NCBI RefSeq assembly: GCF_000153765.1
Contig: NZ_DS022294.1
Span: 192,704-256,703 of the forward strand
Reading direction: 5' to 3'
From: Mariprofundus ferrooxydans PV-1
GTDB taxonomy: Bacteria; Pseudomonadota; Zetaproteobacteria; Mariprofundales; Mariprofundaceae
DNA length: 64,000 nt
Part shown: piece after piece, positions 29,187-46,295 of the stretch
How positions within the stretch are numbered: the stretch's first letter is position 1
Layout: the number at the start of each line of letters is the position of its first letter
The notes under the pieces: generated by a model
Database searches by the model: none
What the model saw: only the letters and a program-made list of their open reading frames with translations
Told to the model about the DNA's origin: nothing
Position numbers and translations under genes: made by a program

Positions 29187-32100
29187 TTACGCCTGCCGAC
29201 AGCTGGCCTCTATCTCGTCCAGCGTAGAGAGCGCCTCATCAAAATCATAAGCGGAGAGGTGCTGACGCAGCAGCGGCACCAACCGACCTGCATTACAACC
29301 GGACAAGGCGTCATCCAGTTCACTAAGCAGATCGACGGCATCTCCGTTGTACTCATTCAGCAACTCGCGCATGCGGGTAATAAGCGGCATGGCATCACCA
29401 CTCGAGATTGCTCTCGGCCGGGCCTGCCTGTCAGCCAGCCAGGCACCGATACCGGCTATCAACGCGTCAAAAGGTGCATGTAAACGTGCAATCGTGCTCA
29501 ATCCGTTAGCCGCCTCATCCGGCAGCATCTGCTCCAGCCGCTCCAGCTCGCCATGCAAAGCCGTTGCGCCGATATTACCGCATACGCCCTTGAGCGTATG
29601 CAAATGCGCCTGCGCCGCAGCCATATCCCCTGCTCCGAGCAGTTGCTCCAGCGTCTCGAGAGCTGCAGCCTGGGAATTATAAAACTTGCCCAGGATTCCG
29701 ACATACAGCGACAAATCACCACCGACTCGCATCAGTCCGTCAGCCCCGTCCAGCCCCTCGATCAACGGTACGTCCATCAGCTGGCCTGCCTCGGGCGCAC
29801 CTGCATTGCCGGCAGCATTCAGGCGTGATGCATCAATCCATCGCAGCAATGTATCATATAGCGTTGCAGGATGAATCGGCTTGGCAATATGGTCGTTCAT
29901 GCCGGCTTGCAGGCAGCGCTCCCGGTCATCAGCCATCGCATTGGCAGTCATGGCAATAATAGGCAACTCCCTGAAACGTGGATTCTTCCGCAACACACGC
30001 GTTGCCTCCAGTCCACCCATCACCGGCATCTGCAGATCCATCAACACACCGTCAAAATCATCATGTTCCAGCGCTTCGATTGCTTCCTGTCCGTTATGCA
30101 CAACCTGCAGGCTGATCCCGGCGCGCGTCAGCAGACCTTCAGCCACCTCCCGGTTAACTTCGTTATCCTCGGCCAGTAGCAGGCGCACGCCCTGCAAGGC
30201 GGAGATACTCTCCGGCGATATCGATTGAGCGAGCCCTGCACCTCTGGTATCCGGATTGAGCGCCTGTTTGGCAGCCTCGCACAAATCCGAGCCTGTCACC
30301 GGCTTGAACAGGCGGACATCAATACCCTGATACTGTACTTCGGCATCCCGACCAATCGGCTGCATCAGGATCAACGGCACGTGCGCATCAACCTTGATCC
30401 GCTTATCTGCATGAGCTGCAGAAACCAGCTGATGCATGCGCCGAATTGCCGTTTCACTGTTCATATCCGACAGTTTCCAGTCCACCAGAAACAGATCCGG
30501 CTTATCCGGCGCCTGCTGCAATGCAGTCAGCGCATCGCTCCCTGTAGGAAACAGCTGCGTATTAAATCCGAGCTCTTCGGCCATGTGTGACATAATCGGA
30601 CCGGAATGCTGACCACCATCGACAACATATAGCATCTTGCCCTGCCCGAGCTCACTATTGATCGCATTCTCCTCTGATCGGGCAACAGATCCGAATCGGG
30701 CCGTAAAATAGAAGCGACTGCCTTCTCCCGGCGTACTCTCCACCCCGATCTCGCCCTGCATCATGGAAACAAGCTGCTTGCAGATCGCCAGACCAAGGCC
30801 TGTACCACCGAATTTGCGTGTAATCGATGTATCCGCCTGACTAAACGCATCGAAAATACCTGCTAGCTGCTCCTGCGACATACCGATACCGGTATCACTG
30901 ACACTAAAGCTCAACTCTGTTTCATGCTCATCCATTGCCAGTATTTTAACCGTCACGATCACTTCGCCCCGGGAGGTGAATTTGATGGCATTATTCACCA
31001 GATTCAGCAACACCTGACCCAGACGAACAGGGTCGCCTCGCAACTTCGGCAACTGCGGCGGCACATCAAAAAGGAAATCCAATCCCTTCCTGCCAGCCTC
31101 CAGCCCCCCGACTCCGGCAATATTTTTCAGTGTATCATCGAAATCAAACACAACGGTTTCCATATGCATTTTTCCGGCTTCAATCTTGGAAAAATCGAGG
31201 ATATCATTGATGATAATGAGCAGTGATTTGGAGGCAGCCAGAATTTTGTTTAAATAATCCTGCTGCTGATGGCTCTCCGCCTGCTCTCTGGCCAGATGTG
31301 AGAGACCAATAACCGCATTCATCGGCGTGCGGATTTCATGGCTCATATTGGCAAGAAAATCGCTTTTTACCTGCGCTGCCGCCAATGCGCGGTCACGTGC
31401 CTCAGCCAGCTGACTTGTACGTCTTGCAACCTCATGTTCCAGCTCATTACCATGCTCTTCCAGCCGGCTATAGGATTGGCGCAAACTGGCCGCCATCTCC
31501 TTGATAGAGGTCACCAGCATGCCGATTTCATCATCACTGCGCGTACTGATATGCGGTTCGGCATCAAAGTTGCCGCCAGCCAGCTCATGTGTGAAGTGCA
31601 CAAGCTTGCGTATCGGATCAGTCCACCTGCGCACCAGCAAAAATACCGCCAGCGCTCCGAGCAGCAGAAACAGCAGCGCAGTGATCGTCGCCTGCATCAC
31701 CACACTATCGGTTTCCGAATCAATATACTTGCGCGATGCCAGCATACGACTGTGCAAATCATCCAGCGAAAAACCCAGACGCAGTACGCCCCATTGTTTA
31801 TCCCGAATCCTGATCGGCACAATGGCTTCCATAAATTCATGCCCGCCGAAGCTGTACTCCCGAGTGATCCTGTTCTGCTGCTTCGCGGCAAAGGATGAAA
31901 TTTCACCCTCTGAAATCGACTCCTGCAGATCTTTGCCGAGATTGTCTCCGAACGCCACGCGTGGCTTATCACCCTTCATCAGTACGACATATTTCAGGTC
32001 GTCCATGTCCTTTACAGCATCCTGAATAAACTCGCGCACCAGACTCAAACGAGAGGTGGAAATAAGGTTATCTACATGGCCTGACAGATTTAAAGCAGCC

Positions 32101-32318
32101 TTGTCTGCCTTTCTGGACATTTCACTTTTGAGAAAATCGATATGCGTGGCAAGCGTATCTTCCATACTCTGCTTGAAGCGGGAGACCTGCAGGACGGTCA
32201 GCAACGTCACCAGCATGACGATCATCAGACCCATCGCAGCCATCAACTTCCGGCGCATGCCGTGGCCCGCCACGGTCGGGCTGGATAAACTCTCGTTCGG
32301 TGAAATACGCTCATTCAT
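29187..32318 (-). CDS. Membrane HAMP hybrid kinase (BarA/TorS-like layout) with two receivers and HPt
   Basis: A 1043-residue sensor: helix 1 (about 22-42), periplasmic domain (about 43-200), helix 2 (about 205-230), HAMP (WTDPIRKLVHFTHELAGGNFD...), coiled coil, HisKA (SHEIRTPMNAV, His327), HATPase_c (DTGIGM, GGTGLGLAI), a first receiver with a weakened acidic pair (YVVDGGQHS) but intact Asp in LVDWKLSD and Lys in FKPV, a canonical second receiver (AEDNEVNRE, MDLQMPVMGG, AKPI) and an HPt with HLHTLKGVCGNIGA. I chose the ATG at 32318; an upstream TTG is possible. No cognate regulator is adjacent, so its output is unknown. Confidence 0.92.
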   Translation of the reverse strand: MNERISPNESLSSPTVAGHGMRRKLMAAMGLMIVMLVTLLTVLQVSRFKQSMEDTLATHIDFLKSEMSRKADKAALNLSGHVDNLISTSRLSLVREFIQDAVKDMDDLKYVVLMKGDKPRVAFGDNLGKDLQESISEGEISSFAAKQQNRITREYSFGGHEFMEAIVPIRIRDKQWGVLRLGFSLDDLHSRMLASRKYIDSETDSVVMQATITALLFLLLGALAVFLLVRRWTDPIRKLVHFTHELAGGNFDAEPHISTRSDDEIGMLVTSIKEMAASLRQSYSRLEEHGNELEHEVARRTSQLAEARDRALAAAQVKSDFLANMSHEIRTPMNAVIGLSHLAREQAESHQQQDYLNKILAASKSLLIIINDILDFSKIEAGKMHMETVVFDFDDTLKNIAGVGGLEAGRKGLDFLFDVPPQLPKLRGDPVRLGQVLLNLVNNAIKFTSRGEVIVTVKILAMDEHETELSFSVSDTGIGMSQEQLAGIFDAFSQADTSITRKFGGTGLGLAICKQLVSMMQGEIGVESTPGEGSRFYFTARFGSVARSEENAINSELGQGKMLYVVDGGQHSGPIMSHMAEELGFNTQLFPTGSDALTALQQAPDKPDLFLVDWKLSDMNSETAIRRMHQLVSAAHADKRIKVDAHVPLILMQPIGRDAEVQYQGIDVRLFKPVTGSDLCEAAKQALNPDTRGAGLAQSISPESISALQGVRLLLAEDNEVNREVAEGLLTRAGISLQVVHNGQEAIEALEHDDFDGVLMDLQMPVMGGLEATRVLRKNPRFRELPIIAMTANAMADDRERCLQAGMNDHIAKPIHPATLYDTLLRWIDASRLNAAGNAGAPEAGQLMDVPLIEGLDGADGLMRVGGDLSLYVGILGKFYNSQAAALETLEQLLGAGDMAAAQAHLHTLKGVCGNIGATALHGELERLEQMLPDEAANGLSTIARLHAPFDALIAGIGAWLADRQARPRAISSGDAMPLITRMRELLNEYNGDAVDLLSELDDALSGCNAGRLVPLLRQHLSAYDFDEALSTLDEIEASCRQA

Positions 32319-32521
32319 GGCCAGATGAACACCTCGTTGCAAACTATTGATGCTTAGCCTCTCGATTCTTTAGGCTGCTTACAAGTCCTCTGTTGTTGTC
32401 GCTGCCATGCAAAGCGTTGCAAACCGGTAGCGGCGGCCGCAGAAAAACAGGCCCGCCAGTAAGTATACCTGACCCCGAACAGGCATACAGAGTGCGATAA
32501 AAAAAAGCGGGCGAATAGATA

Positions 32522-32822: not shown

Positions 32823-33020
32823 GTCACACCCCGCACAACTGCGTGGTCGGACAAAGTCGGAAAGTGGTAGTAATCAAACTGCTGAATTGAGGCACTCATT
32901 TTTCGACACACGTCGAACCATACCTATATATATATCGAACACTTCTACAACCATAGCCATCACAGGCTGATCACTGAATGCAGCTATTGACCATAAGATT
33001 GTTCTGCAACAAACTGAATT

Positions 33021-33791
33021 TCAAACCGAAGGCGAGGTGTCTGCCCCCTGATAACCCAGCTTCATTGAAATTTCCCGGCCGGAAGCCAGCAACGGCTCGA
33101 TCCACTCGTCCCGGCGACGCTCACGCGGTGCGGAAATCGACAGACCGGCCACGGCATTCCCACCAGCATCTCTCACCAACACGCCAATACAGCCAACACC
33201 AAGCTCGGCCTCCTCATCATCAAAGGCGTAGCCCTGCCCGGCGACCAGGCGAACGACATCACACAACTGTCGAGCATTGGTAATCGTGTTGGCTGTGTAG
33301 GCCGGCAACCCGGTGCGCCGGGCATAATCCATACACCCCTCCGGCACACCTTCGCCCAGCATCAGCTTACCGACCGCCGTGACATGCAGCGGCGCCCTGC
33401 TGCCGATCACCTGTTCCACACGCATCAAGCGGTTGGAAATCACCCGCTCCACATACACCACTTCGTCACTTTCCCTGAGCGTCAGGTTCACCGTCTCGCC
33501 TGTGAGGTCGCGCAGCGCGGTCATCACCGGCAAAGCCAGCTGCCGCAAATCAATCTCTCGGGCGGCATGAGATGCATAGCGCAACAGACCGCTACCCAGT
33601 CGGTAGCCACCATCGGCATCGCGCGCTACCCAGCCGTGCTGCTGCAGCGAAGCCAGAATGCGGTGTGCCGTGGAGCTGTGCAACCCGGCATCGACGGCCA
33701 GGACCTTGAGACCGGCATGGCCGTGCTGCGCCAACCCCTGCAACAGAGCAACCATGCGATCAATGACTTGTATATTCGATTCGTTACGCAT
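33021..33791 (-). CDS. IclR-family transcriptional regulator
   Basis: A 256-residue regulator. The N-terminal winged helix-turn-helix (about 5-65) reads VIDRMVALLQGLAQHGHAGLKVLAVDAGLHSSTAHRILASLQQHGWV, and the C-terminal effector domain carries RESDEVVYVERV, PLHVTAVGKLML and GYAFDDEEAELGVGCIGVLV, the usual IclR ligand pocket. IclR relatives AllR and IclR bind glyoxylate, and this one diverges from a glycolate-oxidase operon across 130 bp, so a glyoxylate-type effector is a reasonable guess (inference). The ATG at 33791 is the natural start; the palindrome at 33807-33823 is the likely site. Confidence 0.93.
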   Translation of the reverse strand: MRNESNIQVIDRMVALLQGLAQHGHAGLKVLAVDAGLHSSTAHRILASLQQHGWVARDADGGYRLGSGLLRYASHAAREIDLRQLALPVMTALRDLTGETVNLTLRESDEVVYVERVISNRLMRVEQVIGSRAPLHVTAVGKLMLGEGVPEGCMDYARRTGLPAYTANTITNARQLCDVVRLVAGQGYAFDDEEAELGVGCIGVLVRDAGGNAVAGLSISAPRERRRDEWIEPLLASGREISMKLGYQGADTSPSV

Positions 33792-33806
33792 GGCGACACA
33801 CTAAAC

Positions 33807-33823
33807 ATTTCACATTATGAAAT
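33807..33823. promoter_or_regulatory. Probable IclR-family operator
   Basis: ATTTCA-CATTA-TGAAAT, a 6+6 inverted repeat with a 5-bp spacer, lies 16 bp upstream of iclR and about 100 bp before the TPP-enzyme gene. TTTC-N5-GAAA palindromes are the usual operators of the IclR family. Confidence 0.6.
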
Positions 33824-33921
33824 CAATTCTGTATTGCGTAATAAAAAGGCTGCCAGTAATGTGCTGCCATCGGGCATAAGAAGTGCCTGCACATATTCAC
33901 TTATCGACCAGGAGAGCCGCC

Positions 33922-36111
33922 ATGAACGCACCCGCCTTTTGCCAGGGAATTCAACATTACGGAGAGAAGTGGCCAGACTTCGACCAACATGCAGCCAGTG
34001 CGGTGATCGCTGAGGGCCAGAGCTCAATTGCCGATGCCACGACCGACACCGCCGCCTACCAGACCCTGCTGGCGGCCGATGCACTGCGCTACCTGACCCT
34101 GCAGGTCACCGGCTCCAAAGGCTCCGGCCATCCCGGCGGCTTTGCCTCCAGCGCCGAAGCACATGCCTCGCTGATGATGCAGGGGCACACCAACATCGTC
34201 ACCGAGGTAGGACATCACGCCCCGGGCTTCTATTCCTCGATGTTCCTGGATTCCTCGCTGGAGGAGATGGGCATCCATACCATGGATGACATGATGGCCC
34301 GCTTCCGCGAGCGCCACGGCCTGCTCGGCCACCTGTCCGGCGCCATCCCCGGCCTGCTGGCTCCCGCCGGCCCGCTCGGCCAGGGACAGCACTTCGCCAT
34401 GGCCGGCGCCCTGCTGTACCCGGGCAAGCTGTTCCCTGTCACCATCGGTGACGGCGGCATGGGCGAGCCCTACGTGCTGAACAGCATGATGCATTTCAAC
34501 ACCGCATTCCCCGCGGTCACCAACTTCCTGCCCGTGCTGATCTGGAACGGCTATTCGCAGGAGCATCACTCGATGGTCTCGCGCATGAGCAACGACGAGA
34601 TGATCGCCTACTGGAAGGGTCACGGTTTCAGGGAGGTCGTGCTGATCGATGCGAAGGACTTCGACGACAGTGGCCAGGATCAGCCCTATGTCGACAGCAC
34701 CCGTTTTTCACACTCCCGCCGCCTTGCCTTCACCTCTGCAGTCCTGCAGGGCATCGACCGCGCGGCAAACTCGGCACTCGGCGGCACACTAACCGTATTC
34801 ATCATCAAACAGCTCAAGGGTGCCGGCGTGCACACCGTCGGCGCCAAGTCACACAACCTGTATCCCCAGGACACGCTGGACCAGCCGCACATTATCGATG
34901 GTCTGAAGCGGCGTGCCCTGCCGCCGGAGGCCTGGCAGATCGTGCGCGACAATCTGTCGCGCGCCGGGGGTGGTCCGGCCGCCAAGACCGTGGTAACAGA
35001 AAGTGAGCTTGCGATCGCCCCGATGCCGCAGCTGGCCATGCAGGAGTTCACCCCAGCGGACAAGGCCGTGCCTGCCACAGCCATGGGCGCGCTGGTCGCA
35101 CAGATGGGCCAGGCCGACCCGCGCTTCGTGGTCACCAATGCCGATGGCAACGAGGCCTCGGCGATGAAGAACATCAACGATGCACTGAAGATCCGCCATC
35201 CATCGACCGACCCGTTGTACAACCAGCAGCCCGACGGCCAGGTCTACGAGCCGCTCAACGAAGATGCCTGCGCGGGCCTTGCCGCCGGCCTGGCTTTGTT
35301 CGGTTCACGTGCCCTGTGGCTCTCCTACGAGTCATTCGCCATCAACGGCTGGCCGGTCGTGCAGACCGTCACCCAGGCGATGGCCGAGCTACGCCGCAAG
35401 ACCCCGTCCATCGTCTGCATGTTCACTGCAGGAGCGCTGGAGCAGGGTCGCAACGGCTGGACCCACCAGCGTCCGGAGATCGAGAACCTGTTCTCGGCGA
35501 TGATGCGCAACGGCAACGTCTTCCCGCTGTTCCCCTGCGATGCCAACTGCATTCAGGCGGCCTACGAATACGCTACCGATAGCATCAACAAAGGCATGGT
35601 GATTATTGCTTCGAAGAGCCCGCTGCCGGTCTACCTGGACCTGGCAAGCTCGAAGAAGGCTATCAAGGAGGGTGCGGCCACGTTGTACGAAAGCTGCTCA
35701 GGCGAGCACGGCACAGTGGTGTTCGCGGTTACCGGCGACATGGTGCTACTGCCGGTGTTCGCCGCGAAGGATCTGCTGGAAGCCGAGGGCTACCGCGTGC
35801 GCATTGTCGCCGTGGTCAACCCACGCGCACTGTATCGTCCGGGTGACGTGGCCTGGGACACTGTGTCGCAACCGGACAATGGATTTATGGACGATGATCA
35901 CTTCAACGCCCTGTTCGACGGCGATGCACTGATCGCGGTCAGCGGCGGCCCATCCGCCTCGCTTGAACCGGTGCTGTTGCGTACGCGTGCCCCGAAGCGC
36001 GATACCTTCTGCTGGAAGCGCGGTGAAACCACCGCCTCAGCCGACGAGATCATGGCCTTCAACGGCATTACCTCCGATGCCATGGTGGCACGCGCCAAAG
36101 GTCTGCTGTGA
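33922..36111 (+). CDS. Phosphoketolase/transketolase-like thiamine diphosphate enzyme
   Basis: A 729-residue TPP enzyme of unassigned reaction. The TPP/Mg motif is GDG...N (VTIGDGGMGEPY, then LPVLIWNGYS; GDG-x30-N). Transketolase-like features are GSGHPGG and AGPLGQGQ. Phosphoketolase-like features are LPVLIWNGYSQEHHS, NEDACAGLAAGL followed by WLSYESFAING, NGWTHQRPEIENL and FPCDANCIQAAYEYA. The usual phosphoketolase GPGHGGP and SEH motifs are changed (GHHAPGF, NED), so acetyl-phosphate production should not be assumed. The ATG at 33922 has AGGAG. It heads an overlapping operon with a DUF1537 kinase and GlcDEF. It probably moves a two-carbon ketol unit; donor and acceptor are unknown. Confidence 0.7.
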   Translation: MNAPAFCQGIQHYGEKWPDFDQHAASAVIAEGQSSIADATTDTAAYQTLLAADALRYLTLQVTGSKGSGHPGGFASSAEAHASLMMQGHTNIVTEVGHHAPGFYSSMFLDSSLEEMGIHTMDDMMARFRERHGLLGHLSGAIPGLLAPAGPLGQGQHFAMAGALLYPGKLFPVTIGDGGMGEPYVLNSMMHFNTAFPAVTNFLPVLIWNGYSQEHHSMVSRMSNDEMIAYWKGHGFREVVLIDAKDFDDSGQDQPYVDSTRFSHSRRLAFTSAVLQGIDRAANSALGGTLTVFIIKQLKGAGVHTVGAKSHNLYPQDTLDQPHIIDGLKRRALPPEAWQIVRDNLSRAGGGPAAKTVVTESELAIAPMPQLAMQEFTPADKAVPATAMGALVAQMGQADPRFVVTNADGNEASAMKNINDALKIRHPSTDPLYNQQPDGQVYEPLNEDACAGLAAGLALFGSRALWLSYESFAINGWPVVQTVTQAMAELRRKTPSIVCMFTAGALEQGRNGWTHQRPEIENLFSAMMRNGNVFPLFPCDANCIQAAYEYATDSINKGMVIIASKSPLPVYLDLASSKKAIKEGAATLYESCSGEHGTVVFAVTGDMVLLPVFAAKDLLEAEGYRVRIVAVVNPRALYRPGDVAWDTVSQPDNGFMDDDHFNALFDGDALIAVSGGPSASLEPVLLRTRAPKRDTFCWKRGETTASADEIMAFNGITSDAMVARAKGLL

Positions 36112-37436
36112 ACCGACTGACCAAAATCATCGCCATTGATGACGACCCGACCGGGTCGCAGACGGTTCACGGTTGCCTGCTGCTGACTCGCTGGGACGTG
36201 CCGACGCTGCGTACGGCACTGTGTGATGACTCGCCACTTTTCTTCGTGCTGGGAAACACGCGCGGCATGTCGGCCGAACGCGCTGCCGAAGTGACGCGCG
36301 AGATCTGCGTGAACCTGAAGCAGGCACTGCAGCAGCTGGAGGAAGAGGGCCGAGGCGTGAACCCGATCCTGGTCAGCCGTTCAGATTCCACGCTGCGCGG
36401 CCACTACCCGGTGGAAACCGACATCATCGCCGATGAGCTCGGGCCGTTCGATGCGCATTTCCTGGTTCCCGCCTTCTTCGAGGGCGGCCGCATCACGCGC
36501 GATAGCACCCACTACGTGGTGCAGAACGGCACCCCGGTGCCGGCACACGAAACCGAGTTCGCCAGAGACTCGGTATTCGGCTACAAACACAGCCACCTGC
36601 CCGATTATGTGCAGGAAAAAACCGCCGGACGCATCGCCACCGAACAGGTCGAGCGCTTCACGCTGGACGATCTGCGCGGCGACGTAAGCGAACGCCTGAT
36701 GGCTCTGCATGGCAATGTCTGCGGCGTGGTGGACGCCGAGCAACAGGATGACCTTGATCGTTTCGCCGCCCAGGTGCAGGCCGCAGCAGCACAGGGCAAG
36801 CGCTTCCTGTTCCGCAGCGCAGCCAGCCTGCTGACCTCGCTGGCCGCACTCGGCCCGCAACCGGTGGATGCACAGCATATGGCGCGCTACGTGCGCAAAG
36901 GCAAACCCGGCGCCGTGCTGGTCGGTTCGCACGTGAAGAAGACCACCGCGCAGCTTGCCGCGCTGCTCAAGGAAGCGGGCATCCGCGGCATCGAGGTGGA
37001 CGTGGAGCGCATCGAAGCCGATCGTGATGGACTGCTGGCCGATGTCGTTGCAAGCGCTGCCGGCGCACACGCCGACGGCGACACCCCGGCGATCTACACC
37101 AGTCGCGTGGAGAAGGTCTTCCCCGATCAGGCCGCCCGTCTGGCTTTCGGCGAAGCCGTCTCGGCCCTGCTGATGGATATCGTGCGCCGGTTGCCGGAAG
37201 AGATCGGCTTTCTGATCAGCAAAGGTGGTATAACCTCAAACGACGTGCTGAGTTCGGGTCTGGCACTGGGCACCTCGCGCGTACTCGGCCAGGTACTGGC
37301 CGGCTGCTCTGTAGTGCGCTGCCCGGACGATCATCCGCGCTATCCCGGCCTGCCAGTGGTCATCTTCCCCGGCAACGTCGGCGACGACTCTGCGCTGACC
37401 ACCGTGTACCGCCGCCTGTCGGGCATGGGTGACTGA
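36108..37436 (+). CDS. DUF1537 four-carbon acid sugar kinase family protein
   Basis: A 442-residue member of the four-carbon acid sugar kinase family (OtnK/DtnK/LtnK, also OiaK). N-terminal substrate domain: IIAIDDDPTGSQTVHGC, VLGNTRGMS, VSRSDSTLRGHYPVE, FFEGGRITRDSTHYV and SVFGYKHSHLPDYV. C-terminal nucleotide domain: LVGSHVKKTTAQ, GFLISKGGITSNDVLSSGLA, and FPGNVGDDSALTTVYRRL. Characterised members phosphorylate tetronates or 3-oxo-tetronate at O4. The start is GTG, overlapping the TPP-enzyme stop (GTGA). The usual partners (PdxA2, OtnC, OtnI, or a RuBisCO-like OiaC) are missing here, and GlcDEF follows instead, so the substrate may differ. Confidence 0.88.
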   Translation: MNRLTKIIAIDDDPTGSQTVHGCLLLTRWDVPTLRTALCDDSPLFFVLGNTRGMSAERAAEVTREICVNLKQALQQLEEEGRGVNPILVSRSDSTLRGHYPVETDIIADELGPFDAHFLVPAFFEGGRITRDSTHYVVQNGTPVPAHETEFARDSVFGYKHSHLPDYVQEKTAGRIATEQVERFTLDDLRGDVSERLMALHGNVCGVVDAEQQDDLDRFAAQVQAAAAQGKRFLFRSAASLLTSLAALGPQPVDAQHMARYVRKGKPGAVLVGSHVKKTTAQLAALLKEAGIRGIEVDVERIEADRDGLLADVVASAAGAHADGDTPAIYTSRVEKVFPDQAARLAFGEAVSALLMDIVRRLPEEIGFLISKGGITSNDVLSSGLALGTSRVLGQVLAGCSVVRCPDDHPRYPGLPVVIFPGNVGDDSALTTVYRRLSGMGD

Positions 37437-38914
37437 TGCCGAGACGCGGCATTCCAAAGCAGAGCGCTGACGAGCTGGTAAGACAACTGCTCGAACTGCT
37501 GCCGGATGAAAGCGTGCTGTTCGGCGAAGAAGACCAGCACCCCTACGAATGCGACGGCCTGTCGGCTTACCGGCAAATGCCGCGCGTGACGGTACTGCCG
37601 GAAAACGTTGAACAGGTGCAGGCTGTCATGCGCCTGTGCCACCGCATGCAGGTACCTGTGGTGGCGCGCGGTGCCGGTACAGGGCTCTCCGGCGGTGCTC
37701 TGCCGAATCCGGACGGCGTGCTGCTCAGCCTGGCCAAGCTGCACAACATTCTCGACATCGACCCGATCGGTCGCATCGCCCGCGTGCAACCCGGGGTGCG
37801 CAATCTTGCTATCTCCGAGGCTGCCGTCCCTTTCGGACTGTACTATGCGCCCGACCCGTCGTCACAAATCGCCTGTACTATCGGAGGCAACGTAGCGGAG
37901 AATTCCGGCGGCGTGCACTGCCTGAAATATGGTCTGACTGTGCACAACATTTTGAAGATCAAGCTGGTTACCCCAGAAGGTGAACTACTGTGCGTGGGCA
38001 GTGAGGCGCTGGATAGCGCCGGCTTTGATCTGGCAGCACTGATGACTGGCTCGGAGGGTATGCTCGGGGTGTTCGTCGAGGCCAGCGTGCGCCTGCTGCC
38101 GCGCCCGGAATGCGTCCGCCTGCTACTGGCTGCCTTCGACGATGTGGAAAAGGCCGGTGCGGCGGTGGGCGACATCATCGCCGCCGGTATCATCCCGGGT
38201 GGGCTGGAGATGATGGATCGGATGTCAATTAACGCCGCCGAAGACTTCGTGCATGCAGGCTACCCTCGCGATGCCGCGGCCATCCTGCTCTGCGAGCTGG
38301 ACGGCATGCGCCAGGAAGTGGACGAGCAGGCCGAGCAGGCCGCGGACATCCTGCACCGCGCCGGCGCCACCGAGGTGCGCATAACCCGCGACGAGGCCGA
38401 ACGCACACTGCTGTGGAAGGGGCGCAAATCCGCCTTCCCGGCCGTCGGCCGGCTTGCCCCCGACTACTACTGCATGGACGGCACCATCCCGCGCCGCCAC
38501 CTGCCCAAGGTACTGCGCCGCATCGGCGAGCTCTCGAAGGAGTTCGGCCTGCCGGTGGCCAACGTGTTTCACGCCGGAGATGGCAACCTGCACCCGTTGA
38601 TCCTGTACGATGCAAACATCTCCGACGAACTGGCCCGCGCCGAGACCTTCGGCGGAAAGATTCTCGAGCTATGCGTAGAGGTGGGCGGCAGCATCACCGG
38701 CGAACACGGCGTGGGCATGGAGAAGATCGACCAGATGTGCGTGCAATTCGAAAGCGCCGAACTCAGTCAGTTCCACGCCATCAAGCACGCCTTCGATCCC
38801 GACGCGCTGCTCAACCCGGGCAAGGCGGTGCCGACCCTGCACCGTTGTGCCGAGTTCGGCGCCATGCACGTGCACGCAGGGCAACTCCCATTCCCCGAAC
38901 TGGAGCGCTTCTGA
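37436..38914 (+). CDS. glcD: Glycolate oxidase FAD subunit GlcD
   Basis: A 492-residue FAD-linked oxidase. FAD_binding_4 domain: VVARGAGTGLSGGALP, YYAPDPSSQIACTIGGNVAENSGG, LMTGSEGMLGVF. C-terminal domain: FHAGDGNLHPLILYD and GGSITGEHGVGMEKIDQM, the GlcD signature. In E. coli GlcD, GlcE and GlcF together oxidise glycolate (also D-lactate and other short 2-hydroxy acids) to the 2-oxo acid, passing electrons to the respiratory chain. The ATG shares one base with the kinase stop, and its own stop shares one base with glcE. An N-terminal MPRRGIPKQSADELV replaces the usual longer leader. Confidence 0.94.
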   Translation: MPRRGIPKQSADELVRQLLELLPDESVLFGEEDQHPYECDGLSAYRQMPRVTVLPENVEQVQAVMRLCHRMQVPVVARGAGTGLSGGALPNPDGVLLSLAKLHNILDIDPIGRIARVQPGVRNLAISEAAVPFGLYYAPDPSSQIACTIGGNVAENSGGVHCLKYGLTVHNILKIKLVTPEGELLCVGSEALDSAGFDLAALMTGSEGMLGVFVEASVRLLPRPECVRLLLAAFDDVEKAGAAVGDIIAAGIIPGGLEMMDRMSINAAEDFVHAGYPRDAAAILLCELDGMRQEVDEQAEQAADILHRAGATEVRITRDEAERTLLWKGRKSAFPAVGRLAPDYYCMDGTIPRRHLPKVLRRIGELSKEFGLPVANVFHAGDGNLHPLILYDANISDELARAETFGGKILELCVEVGGSITGEHGVGMEKIDQMCVQFESAELSQFHAIKHAFDPDALLNPGKAVPTLHRCAEFGAMHVHAGQLPFPELERF

Positions 38915-39978
38915 TGCAGGCGGATCGCAGCAACGAACTTCGTGAACATGTGGCCGAGGCTTATGCGAGACAGACCCCGCTGTGCATCACGAGTAGCGGC
39001 AGCAAGGCCGGCCTCGGCCGGCCGGTCAATGCAGCCCAGCTCGAGGTAGCAGCACACCGCGGGGTGACCCACCATGAGCCGACTGAACTGGTGCTGACCG
39101 CACGCGCCGGCACCCCACTGGCCGAGATCGAACAACTGCTGGCCGCACACGACCAGATGCTGCCCTTCGAACCTCCACACCTGGGTGAATCCGCAACACT
39201 GGGTGGCAGCATTGCCTGCAACCTGTCCGGCCCTCGCCGGCCTTACACCGGGGCTGTGCGCGACTTCGTGCTGGGCTGTCGCATCATTAACGGCAAGGGC
39301 GAGGTGCTGCATTTCGGCGGCGAGGTAATGAAGAATGTCGCCGGCTACGATGCCTCGCGCCTGATGGCCGGCGCTCAGGGCACGCTGGGCGTACTGCTCG
39401 ACATCAGCCTGAAGGTGCTTCCCGTACCGGCCTGCGAGATGACCATGGTGTGCTCGTGCAGTGCCGCTGAGGCCTTGCAGCAAATGAACCGGCTGGCCGG
39501 CCAACCACTGCCATTGTCCGCCTCGGCCTGGGTGGAGGGCGTGTTGTACCTGCGCTTTTCCGGCAGCGACAGCGCCATGCTCGCCATCCCCGGGCGCGTA
39601 CCCGGCGAGGTGCTGGGCAACGCGGAGGCACGCAGCTTCTGGCTCGAACTGCGTGAGCGGCAACTGCCCTTCTTCATGGCCAGCGGTGTGTGGCGCATCG
39701 CCCTGCCGCAGGCGGCGGCACAGCCCTCCATCGCCGGGCGCTGGCTGCTCGAATGGGGCGGAGCACAACGCTGGCTACACAGCGATGCCCCGGTGGATAA
39801 GGTCCAGACCGCGGCCGCAGCACTCGGCGGCCATGCCACGCTGCTGCGCCGCGGGGAACATCCCCGCGCCCTGTTGCACCCGCTTGCGCCGGAGCTGATG
39901 CACGTGCACCGGCGGCTGAAACAGGCATTCGACCCGGCCGGCATCCTCAATCCCGGCCGCCTGTACGAGGGGCTGTAA
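38914..39978 (+). CDS. glcE: Glycolate oxidase FAD-binding subunit GlcE
   Basis: A 354-residue FAD_binding_4 protein lacking the large GlcD-type C-terminal domain. Motifs: ITSSGSKAGLGRP, HEPTELVLTARAGTPLAEIE, MLPFEPPHLGESATLGG, NLSGPRRPYTGAVRDFVLG, HFGGEVMKNVAGYDASRL and GAQGTLGVL, all typical of GlcE. The C-terminus ends FDPAGILNPGRLY, shared with GlcD. The ATG at 38914 overlaps the glcD stop (TGATG); a longer frame upstream in this register lies inside glcD and is not coding. Its stop overlaps the glcF start (TAATG). Confidence 0.93.
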   Translation: MQADRSNELREHVAEAYARQTPLCITSSGSKAGLGRPVNAAQLEVAAHRGVTHHEPTELVLTARAGTPLAEIEQLLAAHDQMLPFEPPHLGESATLGGSIACNLSGPRRPYTGAVRDFVLGCRIINGKGEVLHFGGEVMKNVAGYDASRLMAGAQGTLGVLLDISLKVLPVPACEMTMVCSCSAAEALQQMNRLAGQPLPLSASAWVEGVLYLRFSGSDSAMLAIPGRVPGEVLGNAEARSFWLELRERQLPFFMASGVWRIALPQAAAQPSIAGRWLLEWGGAQRWLHSDAPVDKVQTAAAALGGHATLLRRGEHPRALLHPLAPELMHVHRRLKQAFDPAGILNPGRLYEGL

Positions 39979-41186
39979 TGCAGACCCGGATCAGCGATGC
40001 CTTTCGTGACACGCCCGAGGGGCTCGAGGCCGATGCCATCCTGCGCTCCTGCGTGCACTGCGGCTTCTGCACCGCCACCTGTCCGACCTACCAGTTGCTG
40101 GGTGACGAGCTCGACGGGCCGCGTGGCCGCATCTACCTGATCAAGCAGGTGCTGGAGGGCGGACAGGCAAGCGAGAAGACGCAGGCCCACCTGGATCGCT
40201 GCCTGACCTGCCGGGCCTGCGAAACCACATGCCCGTCGGGCGTGCAATACGGCCATCTGGTGGATATCGGGCGCACGCTGGTCGACCGGCAGGTCGGCCG
40301 ACCTATGGGTGAACGCCTGCTGCGTTGGGGATTGCGCAGGCTGGTGGCACACCGGGAACGCTTTGCCGCACTGCTCGCCGCTGGCCGCCTGTTCCGCCCC
40401 TTTCTGCCAGCCAGATGGCGCGCCCACTTGCCGGTACGGCAGGTCGCCGGCTCCTGGCCGGAAATCCGGCATGCACGCCGCATGCTGGTGCTGCAGGGCT
40501 GCGTACAGCCGTCGGCCACCCCGTTGACCAATGCCGCGGCGGCACGTGTACTCGACCGTTTGGGCATCTCGCTGCTCGCCGCCGACGAGGCCGGCTGTTG
40601 CGGTGCAATCAGCCAGCACCTCGGGGCTACTGAGGAGGCGCGTGGCGCAGCACGGCGGAACATCGATGCCTGGTGGCCGCACATCGAGCAGGGCGCGGAG
40701 GCCATCATCTCCACGGCCAGCGGTTGCGGCGTACTGCTCAAGGACTATGACCACCTGCTGCGCGACGATCCGGCGTATGCAGATAAGGCCCGGCATGTGG
40801 CGCAAATGAGCCGCGATCTGATCGAGGTCCTACAGCAGGAGGATATCGACCAACTGCGCGCTGACAGAGCGGATTCCATCGCCGTGCATGCACCGTGCAC
40901 CCTGCAGCACGGCCAGCAGCTACCAGGGGCCGTCGAGGCACTACTGGAAAAGGCCGGCTTCCGGCTGACCGAGGTACCCGATGCACACCTGTGCTGTGGC
41001 TCGGCTGGCACTTACTCCCTGCTGCAGCCGGAGCTTTCAGGCAAACTTCTGGAGCAGAAGCTCGCCGCACTAAACAGCGGTGCACCGGAGTACATCGTCA
41101 CCGCCAACATCGGATGCCAGATGCATCTGGCCAGCCGCTCTGTACGTCCCGTGCTGCACTGGATCGAATTACTGGATCGTGTATGA
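39978..41186 (+). CDS. glcF: Glycolate oxidase iron-sulfur subunit GlcF
   Basis: A 402-residue protein with two N-terminal 4Fe-4S motifs (CVHCGFCTATCP and CLTCRACETTCP) and two CCG domains with cysteine-rich cores (LQGCVQP ... AGCCGAISQHLG; HAPCTLQHGQ ... HLCCGSAGTYSL, ANIGCQMHL). It passes electrons from the GlcD/GlcE flavins toward the membrane quinone pool. Length matches E. coli GlcF (407). It is the last gene of the operon; 64 bp later a decayed tRNA end and a terminator follow, and that terminator probably ends the operon transcript. Confidence 0.95.
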   Translation: MQTRISDAFRDTPEGLEADAILRSCVHCGFCTATCPTYQLLGDELDGPRGRIYLIKQVLEGGQASEKTQAHLDRCLTCRACETTCPSGVQYGHLVDIGRTLVDRQVGRPMGERLLRWGLRRLVAHRERFAALLAAGRLFRPFLPARWRAHLPVRQVAGSWPEIRHARRMLVLQGCVQPSATPLTNAAAARVLDRLGISLLAADEAGCCGAISQHLGATEEARGAARRNIDAWWPHIEQGAEAIISTASGCGVLLKDYDHLLRDDPAYADKARHVAQMSRDLIEVLQQEDIDQLRADRADSIAVHAPCTLQHGQQLPGAVEALLEKAGFRLTEVPDAHLCCGSAGTYSLLQPELSGKLLEQKLAALNSGAPEYIVTANIGCQMHLASRSVRPVLHWIELLDRV

Positions 41187-41227
41187 GGCTTGCAGGCGCA
41201 AGCACGTTCAAGCTGAAGCTTGTCAGA

Positions 41228-41244
41228 CCCGGCCGCCGCAACCA
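41228..41244 (+). pseudogene. Decayed 3' end of a third tRNA-fMet
   Basis: CCCGGCCGCCGCAACCA matches the last 17 nt of the intact copies (TCCGGCCCCCGCAACCA) at 15 positions. The next bases, AAACATAAGGCCC, match those after copy 1 (AAACACAAGGCCC) at 12 of 13. No cloverleaf can be drawn from what precedes it. This is the right edge of the GC-rich block. Confidence 0.7.
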
Positions 41245-41250
41245 AACATA

Positions 41251-41287
41251 AGGCCCTGACGCACTGCGTTCAGGGCCTTTTTTATTG
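41251..41287 (+). terminator. Rho-independent terminator at the right edge of the island
   Basis: AGGCCCTGA (41251-41259) and TCAGGGCCT (41270-41278), with an inner CGC/GCG extension, form a strong stem followed by a T run. It sits where the terminator of a third tRNA-fMet would be and now follows glcF. Confidence 0.9.
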
Positions 41288-41419
41288 TTTAAAATCGTAG
41301 ACAACAACCGACATATCACCCCCGGCAGCACCGATGCGCGGTATTGCGCCAGCACCGGTTTATCATACTGGTTGTATCTGTGGAGAGTGCCTGCTAGAAA
41401 GCGCGCCCCACAGAAAACC

Positions 41420-41494
41420 GGGCGATTAGCTCAGCGGGAGAGCACTGCCTTCACACGGCAGGGGTCGCAGGTTCGAACCCTGCATCGCCCACCA
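41420..41494 (+). tRNA. tRNA-Val (anticodon CAC)
   Basis: A 75-nt cloverleaf: acceptor GGGCGAT/ATCGCCC, D arm TAGCTCAGCGGGAGAGC, anticodon stem CTGCC/GGCAG with loop TTCACAC (anticodon CAC), T arm GCAGGTTCGAACCCTGC, discriminator A and encoded CCA. Confidence 0.96.
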
Positions 41495-41522
41495 TACATA
41501 TTGATAAAGACTAAACGTTAAG

Positions 41523-41550
41523 GCTGCCAATATTGGCAGCTTTTTCTTTT
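41523..41550 (+). terminator. Terminator after tRNA-Val
   Basis: A perfect 18-nt palindrome, GCTGCCAATATTGGCAGC (41523-41540), is followed by TTTTTCTTTTT. Confidence 0.85.
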
Positions 41551-41574
41551 TCCCGGCACTTCCCGACCACCAGG

Positions 41575-42003
41575 TCATGCCTCAGACCTGTTCAGGCAAC
41601 ATTGCAGCCTCTCCGCCAGATTTTGCAACTGCGTCAGAGCCAACTCATACTCACTTTCTAACCGACCATACTCCGTCGCCATCTCTTCGTGCCGGACAGC
41701 AGCCTTATGGTAGATCCGTTCCAACTCTGCGACACGCTCTCCATCACCCCCGGCAGATAGTGATGCAAAGCTGCGGGCAAGCTTCTCAAGCAGCTGTTTA
41801 TGATCCATCACCATGCCATGAAACTGATCCAGCTTGGCACGATGCCCCGGCAAGGCTGCCTCCAGTTCAAAGATAATACCCACGACCTTGTGTTCGCAGG
41901 ATTGCCAATGCTGTAAATCATCCAGCCACGCCTGATGCTCGCTATACCATCGCTCGAAATCTTTCTCGCACGCTGTCAGGTTTATTTCACTTCCATCACT
42001 CAT
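41575..42003 (-). CDS. Small coiled-coil protein of unknown function
   Basis: A 142-residue hydrophilic, helix-forming protein with Trp- and Glu-rich N-terminus (EKDFERWYSEHQAWLDDLQHWQSCEHK) and long heptad-like stretches (ERVAELERIYHKAAVRHEEMATEYGRLESEYELALTQL is one continuous helix). I do not recognise the family. The ATG at 42003 overlaps the ppsA stop by 8 nt and has GGGAG upstream, so it is co-translated with PEP synthase. It may modulate or simply accompany PpsA; nothing in the sequence shows which. No signal peptide or membrane segment. Confidence 0.7.
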   Translation of the reverse strand: MSDGSEINLTACEKDFERWYSEHQAWLDDLQHWQSCEHKVVGIIFELEAALPGHRAKLDQFHGMVMDHKQLLEKLARSFASLSAGGDGERVAELERIYHKAAVRHEEMATEYGRLESEYELALTQLQNLAERLQCCLNRSEA

Positions 42004-44434
42004 TTGTTGCTCCCGGCTTCCTGACCAAAGCCTCTTCCAACGCCAACACATGCCGTATCGATGTCAGGACCGTATCCGGATTCAGGCTGATGGAATCGAT
42101 ACCGATACTCACCAAAAATTCGGCCATCTCCGGATAATCTGACGGTGCCTGGCCGCAGATGCCGGAGTGCCTGCCGTTACGTTTGGCTCCCTCCACGGCC
42201 ATACGGATCATGCTCAGTACACCTGCGTCCCGCTCATCAAAATCAAAAGCAACGATCTCCGAATCGCGATCCACGCCCAGTGTCAGCTGGGTCAGATCAT
42301 TGGAGCCGATGGAGATGCCGTCGAACAGTTCTGTAAAGGCGTCAATCTGAATCACATTGTTGGGGATCTCGCACATCACATAGACCTCCAGCCCGTTCTC
42401 GCCGCGCGTTAAACCGTGCGCCGCCATCGCAGCGAGTACCCGCTCCCCCTCCTCCACCCTGCGGCAGAAGGGAATCATCAGCTTGACGTTGCCAAAGCCC
42501 ATCTCATCACGCACCCGCTTCATCGCGGCACACTCCAGTGCAAAGCCATCGGCATAGGCCGGGTGCACATAGCGGGAGGCTCCACGGAACCCGATCATCG
42601 GGTTATCTTCCTGCGGCTCAAATCCGCTGCCTCCCAGCAGCGTGGCATACTCATTACTCTTGAAGTCGGACATGCGCACGATACAGGGGCTGGGGTAAAC
42701 CGATGCGGCAATCGTTGCCACGCCCTCGGAGAGGGTACGGACAAAGAAGTCCTCTGGAGAGTCAAAAGGTGTACTCATGGCAGCGATCTGCCGGCGCGTG
42801 GCATCATCCAGCTGCTCAGGATGGCAGATCGCCATCGGGTGAGCCTTGATAAACTGGTTGATAATGAACTCAAGACGGGCCAGACCGACCCCGTCCACAG
42901 GCAGCGAAGCAAAGCTGAATGCCCTGTCCGGATCACCCAGATTCATCATGATCTGCGTATGCGGATGACCCAGCCCCCCCAGATCCGTCTGTTCAATGGT
43001 AAAGGGTAACTCGCCTGCATAAACTACACCCGTCTCGCCCTCAGCGCAGCAGATGGTGACATCCTGCCCGTCGGACAGCGACTCTGTCGCATTGCCCACG
43101 CCGACAATAGCCGGCACCCCCAGCTCCCGCGCTACAATCGCCGCATGACAGGTCCTCCCGCCTCTGTTGGTGACAATCGCTGAGGCCCGCTTCATCACCG
43201 GCTCCCAGTCGGGGCTTGTGGTATCGGCTACCAACACTTCACCACTCTGGAATGTCGAGAGCAGGCTGGCATCATCAATCACCCGCACACGCCCGACCCC
43301 GATGCGCTCACCCACGGCTCTCCCCTGAGCCAACACTGTGCCGTGCTGCTGCAGATGATAAATCTCCAGCATATTGGCCTGTCGATGCGATGCGACCGTT
43401 TCCGGTCGTGCCTGCACCATATACAGGTAACCATCGACACCATCTTTCGCCCACTCCATATCCATGGGCCGGGTATGCCCGGCCTGAGCCGAATAGTGCG
43501 CTTCGACCTTGATCGCATAATCGGCCAGCGTCATGATATCCTCATCCGTTATACAGAATCGGGATTGCTCGACAGTGCTCGTATCCACATTACCGATATG
43601 ACCGCCGGCAGAACCGCCGGCAGCATCGATATACACCATCTTTTTCTTTTTACTGCCAAGCTGTCGCTTGAGTACGGTGCGATAGCCCTTGCTGAACGTC
43701 GGCTTATGCACATAAAAACTGTCCGGATCGATCGTACCCTGCACGATATTTTCACCCAGCCCCCAGGCCGCATTGATAAATACCACATCATTGAAACCCG
43801 TTTCGGTATCCAGCGAAAACATCACACCGCTGGTACTGATATCGCTACGCACCATCTTCATCACCACCACGGAGAGATAGACCTTCGACCAGTCAAAATC
43901 GTTGTCATATTTATAGTGGATCGAGCGGTCGGTGAAATTGGATGCCAGACAGCGCTTGTAAGCCTCAATCAAGCCATCTGCCCCGCTGATATTCAGATAG
44001 GATTCATTCTGGCCGGCAAACGAAGCTTCGGGCGAATCTTCCGCCGTTGCCGATGAGCGCACCGCCAGCGACAGATCCTCGCCGTACTCGGCTGTAAGCT
44101 TTGCATAGGCGGCCACAATCTCGGCACGCAGTGTACCCGGCAGCTCGCATGCGTAGACAATCTCCCGGGCCCTGCTGCCACGCAGCTGCAGATCCTCAAC
44201 ATCATCGGGATCCAGTCCGTCGAGCAGATCGTGCAACGCCTGCCAGGCGCCTGCATGCGTCAGCGCATCACGATAGGCCGTCGCCGTAATGGCGAAACCG
44301 TTCGGCACGCGCACACCGGCAGATGAGAGGTGCTGATACATCTCGCCGAGACTGGCATTTTTGCCACCCACCTCCGGCACATCTGTAAGACTGATCTCAT
44401 CAAACCAGCGGATGTAATCCGGCCTGTTGTCCAT
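41996..44434 (-). CDS. ppsA: Phosphoenolpyruvate synthase (pyruvate, water dikinase)
   Basis: An 812-residue enzyme making PEP from pyruvate and ATP, the entry to gluconeogenesis. N-terminal ATP-grasp half: VPEVGGKNASLGEMYQHL, SLAVRSSATAEDSPEASFAGQ. Central swivelling domain with catalytic His: TNRGGRTCHAAIVARELGVPAIVG. C-terminal PEP/pyruvate barrel: FRGASRYVHP, MIPFCRRVEEG, GSNDLTQLTLGVDRDS and GICGQAPSDYP. I chose the ATG at 44434 (MDNRPDYIRWFDE) because AAGGAG lies exactly six bases upstream; the frame extends 37 more codons without homology. Length is close to E. coli PpsA (792). The gene diverges from ade across 190 bp. Confidence 0.95.
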   Translation of the reverse strand: MDNRPDYIRWFDEISLTDVPEVGGKNASLGEMYQHLSSAGVRVPNGFAITATAYRDALTHAGAWQALHDLLDGLDPDDVEDLQLRGSRAREIVYACELPGTLRAEIVAAYAKLTAEYGEDLSLAVRSSATAEDSPEASFAGQNESYLNISGADGLIEAYKRCLASNFTDRSIHYKYDNDFDWSKVYLSVVVMKMVRSDISTSGVMFSLDTETGFNDVVFINAAWGLGENIVQGTIDPDSFYVHKPTFSKGYRTVLKRQLGSKKKKMVYIDAAGGSAGGHIGNVDTSTVEQSRFCITDEDIMTLADYAIKVEAHYSAQAGHTRPMDMEWAKDGVDGYLYMVQARPETVASHRQANMLEIYHLQQHGTVLAQGRAVGERIGVGRVRVIDDASLLSTFQSGEVLVADTTSPDWEPVMKRASAIVTNRGGRTCHAAIVARELGVPAIVGVGNATESLSDGQDVTICCAEGETGVVYAGELPFTIEQTDLGGLGHPHTQIMMNLGDPDRAFSFASLPVDGVGLARLEFIINQFIKAHPMAICHPEQLDDATRRQIAAMSTPFDSPEDFFVRTLSEGVATIAASVYPSPCIVRMSDFKSNEYATLLGGSGFEPQEDNPMIGFRGASRYVHPAYADGFALECAAMKRVRDEMGFGNVKLMIPFCRRVEEGERVLAAMAAHGLTRGENGLEVYVMCEIPNNVIQIDAFTELFDGISIGSNDLTQLTLGVDRDSEIVAFDFDERDAGVLSMIRMAVEGAKRNGRHSGICGQAPSDYPEMAEFLVSIGIDSISLNPDTVLTSIRHVLALEEALVRKPGATNE

Positions 44435-44625
44435 CACCATCTCCTTTTCCAATTCCTCATCCGTTACAGCCATGACCTGCTTCGGCATACCCGGACAGCA
44501 TAGCAGGTTTGACAACATTTTGCTGCGGCCATTCTGCGATGCCAAATTGCGCAGTTTTCACCCATACAGATGGTCGGCACCTGTTTAATATGCTACTATT
44601 AGTTGCACGTGCGGAGGATCCAGAC

Positions 44626-46295
44626 ATGGAGCAGAGCAGCCGAAATCAGCTCATCAGGGGGCAGGTGGTCGACCTGGTTGCAGGCCGGGTATTTCCGGGC
44701 AGCATCGAGGTGGTTGATGGCCGCATCAATGCCGTCAACCACAGCGACAGCGCACCCGATCAATACATCGTACCCGGACTGGTTGATGCCCATATCCATA
44801 TCGAAAGCTCAATGCTGCCACCATCCGAATTTGCCCGTCTGGCCTCACCCCACGGCACAGTAGCCACCGTTTCAGACCCACACGAGATTGCCAACGTGCT
44901 GGGGGTGGAGGGTATACGTTTCATGATCGAAAACGGCGGGAAAGTGCCGTTGAAATTTTATTTCGGCGCCCCTCATGCGTGCCTGCAACAGGATTTGAAA
45001 CTGCCGGTGCATCGCTGCCTGCCGATGCTATTGCCCGGCTGCTGCAACAACCGGAGATCAGTTTTCTCAGTGAGATGATGAATTATCCGGGTGTGATTGC
45101 AGGCGATGATGAGGTCATGAAAAAAATCCGGCTGGCACAGCAGCATCACAAACCGGTCGATGGCCATGCACCGGGACTGCGCGGGGAGGCGGCCGCAGCA
45201 TATGCACAGGCCGGTATTACTACCGACCATGAGTGCATCACCATTGAAGAGGCGCGCGGGAAGATCGCCCTTGGCATGCATATCCTGATTCGGGAAGGCT
45301 CAGCCGCTAAAAACTTCGCGGCTCTGGCTCCGTTGATTACGGAGCATCCTGCCAGCTGCATGTTCTGCAGCGATGATCTACACCCTGATGATCTCGTGCG
45401 CGGTCATATCAACCTGCTGGTCAGCAGAGCCATCAAACTGGGTTATGACCCGGTCGCCGTACTGCGCTGCGCAAGTCTCAATCCCGTGCGCCATTACAAA
45501 CTGGATGTCGGCATGCTGCAGCCGGGTGATGCAGCGGATTTTCTGCTGGTGGATAACCTGCATGACTTTCATATCCACTCCACCTGGATTAACGGCATCA
45601 TGGTTGCCGAGCATGGCCGCAGCCTGATTCCCCGTTGCCACCCGCTGCCGATCAATCGCTTTGGCACCAGCGCAAAATCCCCGACCGATTTCCGCGTGCC
45701 AGCCGCAGGCAGTACCATCCGAGTGATCGAGGCTGCGGAAAACCAGTTGGTGACCGGCAGCGCTATCGCCACAGCGCGTATTGCAGATCATGCAGTAGTC
45801 GCCGATACCGACCGCGACCTGCTTAAAATCGCCGTCGTCAACCGCTATCGCGATGCCACACCGGCCACGGCATTTATCAGAGGTTTCGGACTGCAGCGGG
45901 GCGCCATCGCCTCGAGTGTTGCGCACGATTCACACAATATCATTGCCGTCGGCACAAGCGATGAGCAGATTTGCCGAGCGGTAAACCTGCTCATCGCCGA
46001 GCAGGGCGGCATATCCGCCACATGCGCGGATGAATCCATGCTTGTACCGCTACCCATCGCAGGGTTGATGAGCGATCAGGATGGTTATCAGCTTGCGCAG
46101 CATTATGCCGACATCAACCGCTTTGTCCGTCAGCTCGGCGGCCCGATGCAGGCGCCGTTTATGACCCTCTCCTTCATGGCCCTGCTGGTGATTCCCAGCC
46201 TTAAGCTGAGCGATCAGGGACTGTTTGATGGTGAGACATTTTCTTTCACATCGTTATTCATCGCGGAGGCAGATACGCATGCAGCAGCAACTTGA
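44626..46295 (+). pseudogene. ade: Adenine deaminase with a single-base frameshift
   Basis: Adenine deaminase (adenine to hypoxanthine plus ammonia), amidohydrolase family. The first frame reads MEQSSRNQLIRGQVVDLVAG, PGLVDAHIHIESSML (metal His), VSDPHEIANVLG, and KFYFGAP. It then shifts at a CCCC run (44969-44972), and the expected SCVPATGFETAGA continues in the next frame up to TGA at 46295, with HAPGLRGEAAAAY, SDDLHPDDLV and GFGLQRGAIASSVAHDSHNI. One extra C restores a 556-residue protein of normal family length. Start: GGAGG nine bases upstream. Either a sequencing error, a recent mutation or phase variation. It overlaps hpt, with which it forms a salvage unit. Confidence 0.9.

Follow-up and report, generated by a model that had tools for sequence, protein, structure and literature searches.

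Phosphoglycolate is known to be salvaged by the C2 cycle, the glycerate pathway (through the glyoxylate carboligase Gcl), the malate cycle (through AceB) and oxalate decarboxylation (PMC7486775). According to a published survey, malate synthase occurs in 63% of non-cyanobacterial RuBisCO genomes, in 0 of 9 Acidithiobacillales and in 2% of cyanobacteria (PMC7486775). The means by which chemolithoautotrophs with a Calvin cycle get rid of phosphoglycolate are largely unsettled. DUF1537 kinases, in turn, are known for 3-oxo-tetronate and its pathway to dihydroxyacetone phosphate (DHAP) (PMC12540250). Here we describe an operon in a 64,000-nucleotide stretch of the Mariprofundus ferrooxydans PV-1 genome (contig NZ_DS022294.1, positions 192,704 to 256,703; hereafter referred to as the window) that encodes a thiamine diphosphate (ThDP) enzyme (TPP), a DUF1537-type acid-sugar kinase (KIN) and the glycolate dehydrogenase subunits GlcD, GlcE and GlcF. 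TPP and KIN form an enzyme pair that, in CO2 fixers with RuBisCO, probably recycles the waste acid glyoxylate into sugar phosphate, in what would be a new route of photorespiration. No description of the pair or of the route was found in the open-access literature searched, a scope outside which most subscription journals and preprints lie.

The operon consists of five plus-strand open reading frames (ORFs) spanning 33922–41186, each of which overlaps its neighbour by 1–4 bases, in agreement with the end-to-end overlap recorded in the preliminary description of this DNA. TPP (33922–36111, 729 amino acids (aa)) is followed by KIN (36108–37436, 442 aa, GTG start), GlcD (37436–38914; FAD subunit), GlcE (38914–39978; FAD-binding subunit, with its ATG at 38914 inside TGATG) and GlcF (39978–41186; iron–sulfur subunit). 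GlcDEF is identified by three contiguous subunits with family domains: GlcE (NF008439, 491 bits) and GlcF (NF008434, 656 bits) exceed their NCBIfam cut-offs of 284 and 333 bits, and GlcD (NF008408, 857 bits, with PF02913 and PF01565) falls slightly below its cut-off of 897. KIN contains the N-terminal sugar-binding (PF07005, 197 bits) and C-terminal nucleotide-binding (PF17042, 130 bits) domains that define DUF1537 kinases, both above cut-off, and TPP matches, at low scores, the XFP/transketolase families of Pfam (PF03894, 51.5 bits; PF09364, 39.2 bits; PF02779, 33.2 bits). The gene identities first assigned, a TPP enzyme, a DUF1537 kinase and GlcDEF, are confirmed.

The proposed pathway starts as the known salvage routes do, with the oxidation of glycolate by GlcDEF in RuBisCO organisms. 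From their family assignment, GlcDEF would convert glycolate that stems from RuBisCO oxygenation to glyoxylate. TPP would then use a sugar phosphate, most likely xylulose-5-phosphate or fructose-6-phosphate, as the donor of a two-carbon ketol unit to glyoxylate, in a reaction with the chemistry of transketolase, and would thereby form 3-oxo-tetronate. KIN, as its family suggests, would phosphorylate 3-oxo-tetronate at O4, and the phosphorylated beta-keto acid could lose CO2 to yield DHAP, either spontaneously or by the action of a class II aldolase-like enzyme of some relatives. In sum, glyoxylate, xylulose-5-phosphate and ATP would give glyceraldehyde-3-phosphate, DHAP, CO2 and ADP, with no demand for NAD(P)H and no refixation of ammonia. 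Ketol transfer to glyoxylate gives exactly 3-oxo-tetronate, and the scheme is chemically coherent. The proposed route would be set apart from the known salvage routes by its four-carbon keto acid intermediate and by its end product, DHAP.

The association of TPP with KIN is apparent from their distribution. A scan of genome contigs yielded 364 relatives, and the best 80 come from records of sulfur-, iron- or nitrite-oxidising or related Proteobacteria and of cyanobacteria, with one record labelled Campylobacterota; records with both genes include Acidithiobacillus, Gallionellaceae, Nitrotoga and Nitrosospira. In each of the 59 proteobacterial loci where the sequence extends far enough, TPP is followed by KIN; GlcD lies near the pair in 27 of 42, and a divergent IclR-family gene lies 5′ of TPP in 48 of 50 loci of relatives, indicating that the gene arrangement is not due to chance. 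Furthermore, each of the 51 carrier genomes contains a KIN orthologue. Among 386 sampled cyanobacteria, TPP occurs in 119 (about one third), 118 of which also have KIN and one of which has TPP alone; a close KIN without TPP is present in five, and 262 lack both (Fisher P = 4e-92, phylogeny ignored); among 398 sampled Pseudomonadota, TPP and KIN occur in the same two genomes. The cyanobacterial genes usually lie at separate sites, with KIN adjoining minCD-like genes in at least three genomes, and their co-occurrence is therefore not operon hitch-hiking. Because of this co-occurrence (51 of 51, 118 of 119 and the same 2 of 398), TPP and KIN almost certainly act in one pathway, as the preliminary description had supposed. 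Two local peculiarities of the pair were noted: in a Nitrotoga genome (L056:10266–13354), TPP is followed by two tandem KIN copies that are ~70% identical to the window kinase, and an apparent KIN–GlcD fusion in Acidithiobacillus (a 940-aa open frame) was rejected, since inspection resolved it into two separate ORFs.

The gene set recurs with RuBisCO, a recurrence that the preliminary description had proposed to survey: RuBisCO is present in 47 of the 51 carriers, with two copies in this genome; the background, as published, is a Calvin cycle in 6.0% of microbial genomes (PMC7895386). None of the 51 carriers scores above the 711-bit cut-off of the Gcl model (TIGR01504), which the E. coli control exceeds and which an unusual cyanobacterial carboligase could escape; their best scores, up to 370 bits, resemble those of acetolactate synthases. 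Malate synthase (PF01274) is present in 14 carriers and thus in none of the other 37, and profile searches of this genome found neither Gcl above cut-off nor malate synthase. With Gcl undetected and malate synthase mostly missing, another glyoxylate sink is likely in the carriers. Other neighbours of the locus in relatives, namely malate synthase G, LutABC, TRAP transporters and tartronate semialdehyde reductase, suggest a metabolism of two-carbon and small hydroxy acids. Taken together, the function of TPP–KIN is very probably tied to glycolate or glyoxylate.

The failure to detect Gcl in any carrier would also suit TPP being a non-orthologous glyoxylate carboligase or other glyoxylate-condensing enzyme, in which case it would supply a product that KIN phosphorylates, directly or as derived glycerate, in an analogue of the glycerate pathway, and loci L018, L033 and L065 do have a tartronate semialdehyde reductase gene in the vicinity of the operon. 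We regard this as unlikely, because the reductase is found near those three loci only, the modelled fold of TPP is phosphoketolase/transketolase-like, whereas that of Gcl is the acetolactate-synthase fold, and the DUF1537 family, to our knowledge, phosphorylates four-carbon and related acid sugars and not glycerate. A role in metabolite repair, in which TPP would cleave or build, and KIN would phosphorylate, a four-carbon side product of the Calvin cycle or RuBisCO (for example, erythronate or oxo-tetronate) and GlcDEF would be merely co-regulated, appears similarly improbable. It would account for the link to RuBisCO organisms, the four-carbon acid kinase family and the cyanobacterial copies that do not adjoin glcD, but GlcDEF has been recruited repeatedly into proteobacterial operons, with one-base overlaps in the window, and the pair has no adjoining dehydrogenase or isomerase of a threonate or erythronate pathway.

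By its sequence, TPP represents a distinct family of phosphoketolase/transketolase-like ThDP enzymes: it scores 82–115 bits against the curated phosphoketolase models (cut-offs 777–1518) and 34–48 bits against the curated transketolase models (cut-offs 488–788), thus staying below every cut-off. The same phosphoketolase/transketolase families match all 45 TPP relatives examined, and the members, from autotrophic Gamma- and Betaproteobacteria and cyanobacteria, share 61–88% identity. We compared an AlphaFold2 model of TPP (predicted local distance difference test (pLDDT) 82.8, predicted template modelling score 0.85, with several active-site loops at pLDDT < 50) with known structures. The best match is the phosphoketolase (XFP) of Bifidobacterium breve (PDB 3ahc; Z 38.0, root mean square deviation 4.0, 666 residues, 19% identity), which has the same overall fold and is ~100 residues longer, followed by transketolases (Z 28–31). 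The catalytic ThDP and His positions common to phosphoketolase and transketolase are all invariant in the TPP family alignment. At the catalytic ThDP site, TPP retains H70, H98, H137, H311, E447, Y469, Q508, N511, H515, K565 and S413, the identical counterparts of His64, His97, His142, His320, Glu479, Tyr501, Gln546, Asn549, His553, Lys605 and Ser440 in the phosphoketolase. By contrast, the phosphate pocket, to which we take Arg442 and His548 of phosphoketolase to belong, is incomplete in TPP, with an invariant Arg510 in place of His548 and a non-basic residue (Met415 in the window protein) in place of Arg442; in addition, Gln321 is replaced by Asn312, and the family has one more invariant histidine, His99. 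E. coli transketolase TktA is similar in length, and its H26, H66, H100, H261, E160, E411 and H473 are conserved in TPP, whereas the substrate-pocket residues Arg358, His461, Asp469 and Arg520, of which the three other than Asp469 bind phosphate, correspond to A385, A503, N511 and K565 (Ala/Ser/Thr, Ala, Asn and Lys in the family). The roles of the phosphoketolase active-site residues are taken partly from PMC10547157.

The TPP sequence is compatible with either acetyl phosphate formation or ketol transfer, and the retained phosphoketolase residues do not decide between the two; as a family label for TPP, ordinary phosphoketolase is ruled out by the cut-offs of the sequence models, and as a reaction it still stands. 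That TPP is a short phosphoketolase, forming acetyl phosphate from xylulose-5-phosphate or fructose-6-phosphate while KIN serves an unrelated acid-sugar pathway, would agree with the 3ahc match and with the retention of most active-site residues, but it is very unlikely given the scores far below all phosphoketolase cut-offs (at least 777 bits), the two altered phosphate-pocket residues, the ordinary 794-aa phosphoketolase that the genome already has and the TPP–KIN pairing, for which it offers no explanation.

KIN shares both kinase domains with the 3-oxo-tetronate kinase OtnK (YgbK) of the L-threonate and erythronate pathways, and the proposed substrate and the DHAP end product would be those of the threonate pathway (PMC12540250). 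KIN is 26.6% identical to E. coli YgbK/OtnK, and the DDxTG, DSTLRG-like and GG-TS motifs align; the OtnK equivalog model (OxoTetrKin) gave no match for the window KIN and a weak match in 3 of 32 relatives. The operon differs from the OtnK pathways in that no threonate dehydrogenase or OtnI isomerase adjoins it, and the proposed route differs from the threonate pathway in making the acid from glyoxylate by a ThDP enzyme.

The decarboxylation step was assigned to no gene in the preliminary description, which took it to be spontaneous or encoded elsewhere. None was identified in this genome either, but a candidate directly follows KIN in four relatives (L009, L026, L033 and L060), so that the step need not be spontaneous everywhere. 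This candidate is a class II aldolase-like (F_bP_aldolase) gene encoding 280–291 aa, and its products keep the HxDH and other metal-site motifs and match no equivalog, with the exception of L060, which matches the broad cbbA subfamily. A fifth carrier (G074) has a copy with 59% identity just 3′ of KIN. The 2-OtnC decarboxylase of a three-step L-threonate pathway that yields DHAP is an F_bP_aldolase-domain protein, according to PMC12540250; its likeness to the protein encoded after KIN is one of domain. By this analogy, the aldolase-like gene is a candidate for the decarboxylation step. In this genome, no aldolase-like gene was found beyond an ordinary fructose-bisphosphate aldolase (37% identity over part of its length); decarboxylation here would thus be spontaneous or due to another enzyme. 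Two further candidates were rejected: the sole classic OtnC-type (PF00596) member here is fused (666 aa, 62 bits), is common among relatives and has no operon link, and YgbL-like proteins, which are 26–34% identical, are encoded elsewhere, none adjoining the operon.

The IclR-family gene of the window (33021–33791, minus strand; PF01614, 131 bits; PF09339, 45 bits) is divergent from the operon, and its best NCBIfam match is BhcR, of a glyoxylate-pathway regulator family (159 bits, below the cut-off of 350); this distant match is the only likeness to the beta-hydroxyaspartate cycle seen here. Between the two transcription units, at 33808–33822, lies a candidate IclR operator, TTTCACATTATGAAA, a perfect inverted repeat of the form TTTCA-N5-TGAAA and the sole match to this pattern within the 64-kb window. 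The pattern occurs in 41 of 59 IclR–TPP intergenic regions of relatives (shuffled sequences, mean 0.025, maximum 1). The regulator would control the operon through the conserved palindrome, to which its binding is predicted. A probable ribosome-binding site of the TPP gene, read from the sequence as AGGAGA, is located at 33910–33915 (plus strand), 7 bases 5′ of the ATG at 33922.

The guanine–cytosine (GC) content of the operon is 62–64%, compared with 48–59% elsewhere in the window, the raised part being 33001–42000, and the TPP family was not found in 22 congeneric genomes. Together, these observations make horizontal acquisition probable, and the operon is probably an island gained by transfer, as judged from composition and distribution. 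To the features listed in the preliminary description, the analysis adds the IclR gene, the operator, the raised GC content and, in some relatives, an aldolase-like gene that follows KIN. Antisense ORFs across the operon were set aside as by-products of the high GC content.

Several observations weigh against the proposed route. One CO2 would be lost per glyoxylate, twice the loss in the glycerate pathway (by bookkeeping, one more per two glyoxylates). KIN is remote from the characterised equivalogs, scoring 63 bits against the D-threonate kinase cut-off of 450, and TPP has the phosphoketolase-type residues Q508, N511 and K565, which a plain ketol transferase does not obviously need. The aldolase-like gene is present in only 5 of the 51 carriers. 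GlcD is not found near the pair in 15 of the 42 loci, nor in cyanobacteria, and ~34 further cyanobacteria have a distant KIN homologue (mostly 41–53% identity) without TPP. Moreover, four of the 51 carriers have no RuBisCO match, including G067 (the record of L011), the chromosome of which is apparently complete, and the RuBisCO link is therefore not absolute. The case for the route consists of gene content, synteny, the TPP–KIN pairing, the RuBisCO link, the scarcity of rival routes and operator conservation, which are observed; the substrates and products are those that we infer. On balance, we give even odds to the operon being a regulated, horizontally mobile glycolate-salvage unit that works by the proposed reactions. 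The wider claim, that a natural, reductant-free photorespiratory route of TPP ketol transfer to glyoxylate followed by KIN action to DHAP is at work in about one third of cyanobacteria and in many autotrophs that oxidise iron, sulfur or nitrite, could equally well prove right or wrong. If correct, the route would constitute a fifth type of phosphoglycolate salvage pathway and would provide two new natural enzymes for synthetic photorespiration bypasses. Its cost would be in ATP and not in NAD(P)H, which might be of use to organisms that depend on reverse electron flow for their NADPH.

The genomes with a distant KIN homologue and no TPP orthologue are mostly small cyanobacterial ones (for example, G561, G703 and G812). 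In the window, the gene just past the IclR gene (29187–32342, minus strand) encodes a hybrid sensor histidine kinase of large size, the domains of which include HAMP, response-regulator and Hpt, and no link between it and the operon was found. A minus-strand ORF of 158 aa (41575–42051), between GlcF and a PEP synthase gene, has no Pfam or NCBIfam match. Further downstream, an adenine deaminase gene is split between two plus-strand frames (44509–45078 and 44979–46295), which suggests a frameshift near 44980–45078, either of the organism or of the assembly.

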